From assembly GCF_030530745.1 (NCBI RefSeq), contig NZ_JAUMUI010000018.1, positions 1 to 43,097 on the forward strand: a stretch of DNA of 43,097 nt, read 5' to 3'. The DNA is from Neisseria sp. GTDB lineage: Bacteria; Pseudomonadota; Gammaproteobacteria; Burkholderiales; Neisseriaceae. Under the pieces are notes generated by a model. It saw nothing but the letters and a program-made list of their open reading frames with translations, had not been told where the DNA came from and did no database searches. The position numbers and the translations under genes are program-made. Below are positions 28,372 through 30,484 of the stretch, piece after piece; position 1 is the first letter of the stretch; each line of letters starts with the position of its first letter.

Positions 28372-28395
28372 CGCACCGCCCGAAACCTATTATAG

Positions 28396-28434
28396 AGGCC
28401 GTCTGAAAACCGAAATATTTTCAGACGGCCTTTA
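28396..28434 (+). terminator. Inverted-DUS terminator of the RpfF-like gene
   Basis: AGGCCGTCTGAAAA (28396-28409) and TTTTCAGACGGCCT (28418-28431), then TTT: a 14-bp stem with an 8-base loop. Confidence 0.85.
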
Positions 28435-28479
28435 AACGCTTCCGCATCCCAAACATATAGTCAACCAACCCAAGAAAAT

Positions 28480-28633
28480 AAATTAGACAAAAAGTCCTAT
28501 AAAATTACAAAAAAACAGATAAACAAAAAAATTTGCAGAATTTATTGCCGTTTTGTCTGATTTCTGTATAATCACCGCCATATCCTACCCTACCGAAACA
28601 AAATTAGACAAAGGCATCCCATGCAATTAGACA
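28480..28633 (+). promoter_or_regulatory. Promoter of HTH-leuA with repeated operator-like boxes
   Basis: The core promoter is TTGCCG (28545-28550), 16 bases, TATAAT (28567-28572). The 12-mer AAATTAGACAAA occurs at 28480-28491 and 28601-28612 and, inverted with one change (AAATCAGACAAA), at 28552-28563, exactly between -35 and -10. The 9-mer AATTAGACA occurs again at 28625-28633, just inside the reading frame. Such boxes around one promoter suggest repressor binding; the HTH domain encoded immediately downstream is the obvious candidate. No leucine-codon leader peptide was seen. Confidence 0.65.
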
Positions 28634-30408
28634 TCGACCGTTTAATCGCCTATTTCGGCGGCGTAAACGCGCTGGCCGAAGCCCTGAAAGCGCACGACCC
28701 CGAAAATGCGGCAAGCACGGCGGCCATCTACAAATGGCGCACGCGCGGCTCGCTGCCGCTGGCGCAACTGCAAAAACTCACCGCACTGGCCGAAGCACAG
28801 GGCCGCCCTTTGGATTTAAACGCCTTTTTACAGCAACAAACCACGTTGGAGAAACAAACCATGCCGCAAAACAACCGCGTTATCATTTTCGACACCACCC
28901 TGCGCGACGGCGAACAATCGCCCGGCGCCGCCATGACCAAAGAAGAAAAAATCCGCATCGCCCGCCAATTGGAAAAGCTGGGCGTCGATGTAATCGAAGC
29001 CGGCTTCGCCGCCGCCAGCCCCGGCGATTTCGAAGCTGTGAACGAAATCGCCAAAACGCTGACCCGCGCCACCGTCTGCACACTGGCGCGCGCGGTTGAA
29101 AACGATATCCGCAAAGCAGGCGAGGCAATCGCCCCTGCCGCCAACCGCCGCATCCACACCTTTATCGCCACCAGCCCCATCCACATGGAACACAAGCTGA
29201 AAATGAAGCCGGCCAAAGTGGTGGAGGCCGCCGTTAAGGCCGTGAAAATTGCCAAAGAATACACCGACGACGTCGAATTTTCGTGTGAAGACGCGCTGCG
29301 TTCCGAAATCGGCTTTTTGGCCGAAATCTGCGGCGCCGTAATCGAAGCGGGCGCCACCACCATCAATATCCCCGACACCGTCGGCTATTCGATTCCCCAT
29401 AAAACCGAAGAATTCTTCCGCGAGCTGATTGCCAAAACCCCCGGCAGCGGCAAAGTGGTGTGGTCGGCACACTGCCACAACGATTTGGGGCTGGCCGTCG
29501 CCAACTCGCTGGCCGCATTGAAAGGCGGCGCGCGCCAGGTAGAATGCACCGTAAACGGCCTGGGCGAACGCGCCGGCAACGCATCCATCGAAGAAATCGT
29601 GATGGCGCTGAAAACCCGTAACGACGTTTTCGGTTTGGAAACCGGTATCGACACCACCCAAATCGTGCCCTCTTCCAAACTCGTGTCCACCATCACCGGC
29701 TACCCCGTGCAGCCCAACAAAGCCATCGTCGGCGCCAACGCCTTTGCGCACGAATCGGGCATCCACCAAGACGGCGTGCTCAAGCACCGCGAAACCTATG
29801 AAATCATGTCGGCCGAATCGGTGGGCTGGGCCGCCAACCGCCTGAGTTTGGGCAAACTTTCCGGCCGCAACGCCTTTAAAACCAAACTTGCCGATTTGGG
29901 CATCGAACTGGGCAGCGAAGAAGCCTTAAACGCTGCTTTCGCCCGCTTCAAAGAACTGGCCGACAAAAAACGCGAAATTTTCGACGAAGACCTACACGCG
30001 CTGGTTTCCGACGAAATGCACAGCCTCGCCCAAGATGCCTATAAATTCATTTCGCAGCGCATCACCACCGAAACCGGCGAAGAGCCGCGCGCGCAAATCG
30101 TATTCAGCGTGAAAGGCGAAGAAAAACAGGCAGAAGCCACCGGCTCAGGCCCGGTCGATGCCATTTTCAAAGCCATCGAAAGCGTGGTGAACAGCGGCGC
30201 CGCCCTGCAGATTTATTCGGTGAACGCCGTAACCGAAGGCACCGAAAGCCAGGGCGAAACCTCCGTGCGCCTCGCACGCGGCGGCCGTGTGGTGAACGGC
30301 CAGGGTGCCGACACCGACGTGCTGGCCGCTACCGCCAAAGCCTATCTCTCGGCCTTAAGCAAACTGGAATTCAGCGCCGAAAAAGTGAAAGCGCAAGGCG
30401 ATATCTGA
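28621..30408 (+). CDS. leuA: 2-isopropylmalate synthase with an N-terminal HTH domain
   Basis: LeuA condenses acetyl-CoA with 2-oxoisovalerate, the first committed step of leucine synthesis. Residues 81-595 form a full-length enzyme: [13 protein letters not shown] (90-102, with catalytic Arg95 and metal ligand Asp96), HCHND (284-288, metal-binding His284 and His286), [14 protein letters not shown], and the C-terminal leucine-feedback domain (about 470-595). Residues 1-80 are an in-frame extension with a Cro/YdaS-like helix-turn-helix ([13 protein letters not shown] ... [14 protein letters not shown]). Met81 at 28861 is preceded by TTGGAG, so a separate enzyme-only form may also be made. The frame is uninterrupted across the junction. 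Regulation by the upstream boxes is inferred. Confidence 0.92.
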
Positions 30409-30428: not shown

Positions 30429-30458
30429 CAGGCCGTCTGAAACGTTTCAGACGGCCTG
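30429..30458. terminator. Perfect 30-bp DUS palindrome after leuA
   Basis: CAGGCCGTCTGAAAC followed directly by its inverse gives a fully self-complementary 30-mer without a loop, flanked on the minus side by a T-rich run. It probably terminates both leuA and the convergent aminopeptidase gene. Confidence 0.8.
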
Positions 30459-30484
30459 ATACTTTATAAAAAGATAAAAAGCCG

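Follow-up and report, generated by a model that had tools for sequence, protein, structure and literature searches.

A helix-turn-helix-headed 2-isopropylmalate synthase predicted to repress its own gene in Neisseriales

We analysed a 43,097-nt stretch of DNA from Neisseria sp. (assembly GCF_030530745.1, contig NZ_JAUMUI010000018.1; hereafter the window) in which leuA, the gene for 2-isopropylmalate synthase, begins with a helix-turn-helix (HTH) domain and lies behind a promoter carrying repeated operator-like boxes. LeuA is a textbook example of a feedback-inhibited enzyme. Comparison with relatives makes it very probable that HTH-LeuA is a trigger enzyme that represses leuA and, in Neisseriaceae, also leuC, presumably when leucine is bound. 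If so, a single protein would sense leucine and set both flux and transcription across the Neisseriales, with no separate regulator.

A preliminary description of this DNA had proposed that the HTH is continuous with a full-length LeuA. Indeed, both are encoded by one open frame, with the following parts:

28621-30408, + strand: leuA, a single open frame of 595 amino acids (aa) running from the HTH through LeuA
28621..28830, + strand: Cro/YdaS-type HTH domain (NCBIfam carph-isopro), residues 1-70, from profile and structure model
28834..28869, + strand: disordered linker, residues 72-83, with a predicted local distance difference test (pLDDT) score <50
28876..30405, + strand: catalytic, post-HMGL and C-terminal leucine-binding (LeuA_dimer) domains of 2-isopropylmalate synthase, from profile matches

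Residues 5-65 matched NCBIfam NF046037 carph-isopro with 77.1 bits (cut-off 38), a clear member of a family whose catalogue entry names the domain only; the HTH fell below the gathering cut-off of Pfam P22_Cro (PF14549; 20.7 against 30.2 bits). Residues 83-592 matched 2-isopropylmalate synthase (NF002087, 900.1 bits, cut-off 729), as did LeuA with TIGR00973 (694.2 bits, cut-off 598.7). AlphaFold modelled the HTH alone as five helices (mean pLDDT 85.5); in a model of the whole protein (mean pLDDT 75.6) a confident HTH was followed by the disordered residues 72-83 and then by LeuA. The best four Foldseek rows for the HTH model were all N15 Cro (PDB 2hin and 6on0), two of them from a complex with operator DNA. 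This nearest solved fold is likewise an HTH repressor, seen on operator DNA in 6on0, but a stand-alone phage protein with 17-18% sequence identity. With tblastn, we looked for a phage source of the HTH in 50,697 phage records and found nothing at E-values up to 1. The HTH is under strong constraint at the protein level, with A34, A35, Y37, K38, W39, R40 and R42 invariant among 49 aligned sequences. ESGIHQDG of LeuA was invariant in 49 sequences too, as was a 19-residue stretch save for its N. The enzyme domain of the fusion is intact, and a DNA-binding domain lies within the same chain.

The HTH was present in 78 of 84 Neisseriaceae genomes (71 of the 72 good ones) and ran on into LeuA in all 79 loci read from this family (in L086 the HTH is clipped by the contig end). 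Five of the six HTH-less genomes are incomplete (58-86%), with no intact LeuA seen; the sixth, G064, is 99% complete and has a LeuA without the HTH. Within the order, 399 genomes were searched, and the HTH domain together with a frame of ∼600 aa turned up in several further families. We also scanned named records and kept the best 80 of 113 confirmed stretches (the named set). These come mostly from outside Neisseriaceae, the genera being mainly Chromobacterium, Aquitalea, Vogesella, Iodobacter, Chitinibacter, Aquaspirillum and Neisseria, and include Neisseriaceae records that may stem from the same genomes as the Neisseriaceae set. Some carry broad or other labels (Xenophilus sp. AP218F, a Janthinobacterium metagenome-assembled genome, unnamed proteobacteria); the four taxa checked in the taxonomy were Neisseriales. 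HTH and LeuA were in frame in 79 of the 80 named loci. Judging from these loci, the fusion is real and old, spanning families of the Neisseriales. The exception is L245 (Paludibacterium denitrificans), whose HTH and LeuA do not share a frame, through either a real break or a sequencing error.

Upstream of leuA and across its first codons, we assigned the following elements:

28483..28499, + strand: distal operator TTAGACAAAAAGTCCTA, matching 11 of the 12 defined positions of TTRGAC-N5-GTCYAA, taking in the first box and keeping its place in relatives
28544..28560, + strand: promoter operator, 61 bp from the distal operator, whose right half GTCTGA (28555-28560) is strong and falls between the -35 and -10 elements
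28545..28550, + strand: -35 element TTGCCG
28567..28572, + strand: -10 element TATAAT
28601..28612, + strand: third box AAATTAGACAAA, a single half-site just ahead of the start codon
28625..28633, + strand: half-site AATTAGACA across codons 2-5

The boxes reported in the preliminary description were all recovered: the 12-mer AAATTAGACAAA occurs exactly at 28480-28491 and 28601-28612, its inverted copy with one change (28552-28563) is flanked by TTGCCG and TATAAT as claimed, and the fourth, nine-base match over the first codons is AATTAGACA. Full palindromic sites occur in relatives (for example TTAGACAAAATGTCTAA and TTAGACATTAAGTCTAA), so the boxes are half-sites of TTRGAC-N5-GTCYAA. The left half of the promoter operator is degenerate in the window and merged with the -35 box, in the register of TTTGAC-N5-GTCCAA of other families. 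Usually there is one distal and one promoter site; outside Neisseriaceae, the latter has its left half TTTGAC on the -35 box. For the half-site over the start codons, codon usage supports a role in the operator only within the named set, where Leu3 is TTA/TTG in 45 of 57 loci compared with 167 of 711 other HTH leucines. Such a role was rejected for Neisseriaceae, where Leu3 showed no bias (40/70 vs 443/773).

We scored each leuA gene by the best match to the 12 defined positions within -220 to +21 of its start. At least 10 of 12 positions matched in 72 of 77 Neisseriaceae and 64 of 69 named HTH-leuA genes, but in none of 50 HTH-less leuA genes of the order (top score 9; for nine of these controls the start was set from the match position). 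About 2% of first-order Markov copies of the upstream regions reached this score. The ten weaker HTH-leuA genes all scored 9, with half-sites visible by eye in several. From the 79 Neisseriaceae loci we left out L086, whose HTH is truncated at its start, and L043, whose upstream region duplicates another; from the 80 named ones, L245 and ten loci with identical or short upstream regions. In a pattern-free count, TTAGACA/TGTCTAA was the most enriched 7-mer of the named set over controls (44/69 vs 1/41), and it was also found upstream of 69 of the 77 Neisseriaceae HTH-leuA genes. The cases of loss agree with this picture. G064, which has lost the HTH, scored 8 and groups with HTH-bearing Neisseriaceae in the LeuA tree (nearest fork 86/55). 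In genus g33, G150 has both HTH and operator (score 11), G104 (7) and G193 (9) have neither, and the pairing of G150 with G104 has 100/100 support. On the tree of 47 LeuA cores, of which 36 carry the HTH, four label changes are required and at least three are forced, so the co-occurrence of HTH and boxes, which held in these relatives, does not go back to one single event, though not to many either. The G064 leuA (L411) sits behind the putative end of a clpB-like gene.

The spacing between distal and promoter sites was 41 bp in one upstream cluster, 52-54 bp in two, 61-65 bp in 27, 71-75 bp in 37 and 83-84 bp in five, with none between (72 clusters from 103 of 146 sequences; the rule for placing the promoter site differed between the two sets). 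The best of seven periods was 10.5 bp (R 0.84, with a p-value that takes no account of kinship), which would place both sites on one face of the DNA, as for cooperative binding or a loop. Within one operator, the half-sites are 11 bp, or about one turn, apart, a distance that would suit a dimer.

Having fixed the operator pattern beforehand, we read the upstream regions of leuC in Neisseriaceae, where the gene is present in 83 of 84 genomes and 50 loci were taken (L406, a duplicate, was removed, and an identical pair was counted once). A site with at least 10 of 12 positions was found in 47 of the 50 loci (46 of 49 distinct sequences), compared with 39 of 2450 Markov copies. It was perfect in 13 of the 50 and is CAAGACAAAATGTCTAA (10/12) in the window's own genome. 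A further half-site followed 42 of the 47 sites, mostly after 60-61 bp, also after 50, 58, 59, 71 or 73 bp, with 31 and 48 bp as exceptions. None of ten HTH-less genomes had the leuC site. A predicted operator is thus conserved at promoters of the enzyme's own pathway and tied to the presence of the HTH.

From the fusion, the site, its co-occurrence with the HTH, the phasing and the leuC sites, we infer how HTH-LeuA could act. A LeuA dimer would bind by presenting two HTHs on flexible linkers to the 17-bp palindrome. With the distal and the -35/-10 sites filled, probably cooperatively or by a loop, the leuA promoter would be blocked, and in Neisseriaceae the same site would put leuC under control too. 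The leucine-binding C-terminal domain would probably make DNA binding leucine-dependent, tying feedback inhibition to repression. Alternatively, HTH-LeuA could occupy these sites gated by substrate or product, binding when the former is scarce or the latter high, or could be an activator. This would be in line with trigger enzymes acting as transcription factors when their substrates are absent, as stated in part of PMC8249747, and with the attachment of the HTH at the catalytic-domain end. Against these readings stand a promoter operator overlapping the -35/-10 region, a repressor's place, and a second HTH-LeuA of 560 aa in G283 (L136:1474-3153). In this protein, SLRPAHLG replaces TLRDGEQ, CCHDG replaces HCHND and the ESGIHQDG stretch is missing, while the HTH (56 bits) and LeuA_dimer (106 bits) are retained, the leucine-binding domain at 53% identity; upstream lies ATGGACACTTTGTCCAA, an 11/12 operator. 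We therefore consider such gating or activation rather unlikely. To judge by its motifs, L136 is a catalytically dead paralogue, and it resembles a dedicated leucine-sensing repressor that may have been derived from the fusion. A further LeuA-like gene follows it.

Several observations weigh against repression by HTH-LeuA or limit its reach. At up to two mismatches, the 12-mer has eight matches in the window, four of them inside 28480-28612, against 5.5 expected; the bare count is not exceptional, as 21 of 100 shuffles reach eight, and the real test of the boxes is their conservation in relatives. The palindrome was itself derived from the very relatives on which it was afterwards counted, making the co-occurrence count partly circular, a circularity from which the pattern-free 7-mer count and the leuC test are free. 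Much of the co-occurrence was inherited from few events, the dead paralogue was seen in one genome only (one of six of that family), and the Foldseek E-values to N15 Cro are weak (0.34-0.70). The leuC site was absent from all 16 upstream regions read in other HTH families; it therefore looks as if leuA control is general and leuC a likely second target, added as an extension in Neisseriaceae. Perfect palindromes were not enriched in 16 genomes (13 sites vs 19 for the reversed control), and the window's own genome has none. One-mismatch sites were below control in that genome (14/23) and in G022 (32/43), and above it in G066 (48/21), G067 (35/30) and G083 (34/18). The 13 perfect sites, in eight of the 16 genomes, comprise six at leuA, one at leuC and six elsewhere, five of the latter in coding frames read as rpsE (twice), recJ, fbp and an ABC protein and the sixth at G283:C1:2400177. 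A regulon defined genome-wide by the pattern alone was rejected on these counts (one-mismatch sites below control in two of five genomes, above in three), and we place the leuC claim on the targeted promoters. Finally, gonococcal leu1 is induced without oxygen (table values 6.6 and 4.5), while neither leuB nor leuD is mentioned in the text of that paper, whose discussion brings up leucine and Lrp (PMC3032703); an excerpt of another study places meningococcal leuA and leuB in one subnetwork (PMC5383966).

The discussion of leu1 in terms of Lrp also fits a separate regulator, for example of the Lrp/AsnC type, binding the palindromes, with the HTH of LeuA a relic or otherwise employed. Such a regulator would sit well with the promoter site and third box of the window, which are half-sites only, and binding of the sites by HTH-LeuA is a prediction from sequence. 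It would leave unexplained why HTH and site are missing together in close kin (G064; G104 and G193 compared with G150) and in the 50 HTH-less controls, why seven HTH residues are invariant and why the dead paralogue has kept both HTH and operator. We regard a separate regulator as improbable.

The preliminary description also pointed to a ribosome site before Met81, which is present:

28848..28863, + strand: candidate inner translation start, GGAG 9 nt 5′ of the ATG at 28861 (Met81), for an enzyme-only LeuA

An anti-Shine-Dalgarno match of at least 4 precedes the Met close to the old LeuA start in 70 of 83 Neisseriaceae and 74 of 80 named cases, compared with 134 of 548 and 91 of 575 other in-frame Met codons. 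The solved chain 3rmj, which we take to be the N. meningitidis protein beginning at its annotated start, aligned to residues 78-444 only. Together, the conserved match and the start of 3rmj make an enzyme-only form beside the full-length one plausible, in support of the inner start suggested earlier. As this solved Neisseria chain lacks the HTH, a DNA-binding function may have gone unseen behind the choice of start codon. The same two observations could mean that the Met81 form alone is made, with the HTH frame as a leader, either vestigial or regulatory. This is very improbable, because the HTH is conserved as protein (15 of 80 columns invariant across 42 sequences), a Shine-Dalgarno match also precedes the outer start (59/78 and 76/79), and four of 78 Neisseriaceae loci lack an inner Met near the LeuA start.

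Repression of a pathway by its own enzyme has precedents. Five trigger enzymes of the PutA and NadR kind are described in E. coli, acting in other pathways and, in the part of that source available, including no enzyme of the leucine pathway (PMC8249747). A further likeness is BirA, an enzyme whose N-terminal DNA-binding domain represses its own pathway, as predicted here for HTH-LeuA; according to the portion of the source available, BirA with this domain represses biotin genes, and BirA that has lost it apparently controls no regulon (PMC5343134). BirA is, however, a different enzyme with a different HTH, and no biotin ligase domain was found among all six Pfam matches or the 25 of 31 NCBIfam matches listed for HTH-LeuA. 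It is also autoregulated only in Desulfovibrionales, as far as that portion goes (PMC5343134), whereas the leuA promoter would be the core target of HTH-LeuA. In the open-licence literature, we found no paper naming carph-isopro and recognised none on such a DNA-binding LeuA; the literature searched does not describe this pathway or this head for a trigger enzyme. PMC12345160, considered as a prior description, concerns in its available part the unrelated Leptospira LeuA2. With a loss, a dead paralogue and the extension to leuC, the fusion would offer a clean case of an enzyme becoming a transcription factor.

A comparable arrangement was found in other families of the order, where 13 loci (L137-L149) have a YdaS/carph-isopro-like HTH in frame with a class-V aminotransferase (in L143, Aminotran_5 64 bits, YdaS_toxin PF15943 34 bits and carph-isopro 34.6 bits, the last under its cut-off). 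All 13 carry a CTTGTCAA-N6-TTTGACAAG-like palindrome, also written TTGTCAA-N6-TTTGACAA, 54-101 bp before the HTH match, with 13-17 of 17 positions; Markov copies reached 13 of 17 in 5 of 650 cases, for a pattern read from the same 13 loci. This looks like a second, independent enzyme-repressor. If true, the capture of phage-type Cro/YdaS heads by enzymes would be a recurrent route to one-protein feedback circuits. Tentatively, all these features could be joined: one gene would give two proteins, HTH-LeuA in full length as repressor and enzyme and, from the conserved inner start, the enzyme without its HTH; the leucine-bound full-length form would loop the two phased operators over the promoter, tuned by mixed oligomers with the short form; and the same design would have arisen independently in the aminotransferase of neighbouring families. 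This combined scheme is possible, and we hold it with reserve.

A related HTH is also N-terminal in two proteins with frames of 451 and 458 aa (L132 and L135), which we assume to be RhuM-like. In the window, inverted GCCGTCTGAA-type repeats, presumably Neisseria uptake sequences, flank leuA at 28395-28435 and 30429-30460 in an ordinary terminator arrangement.
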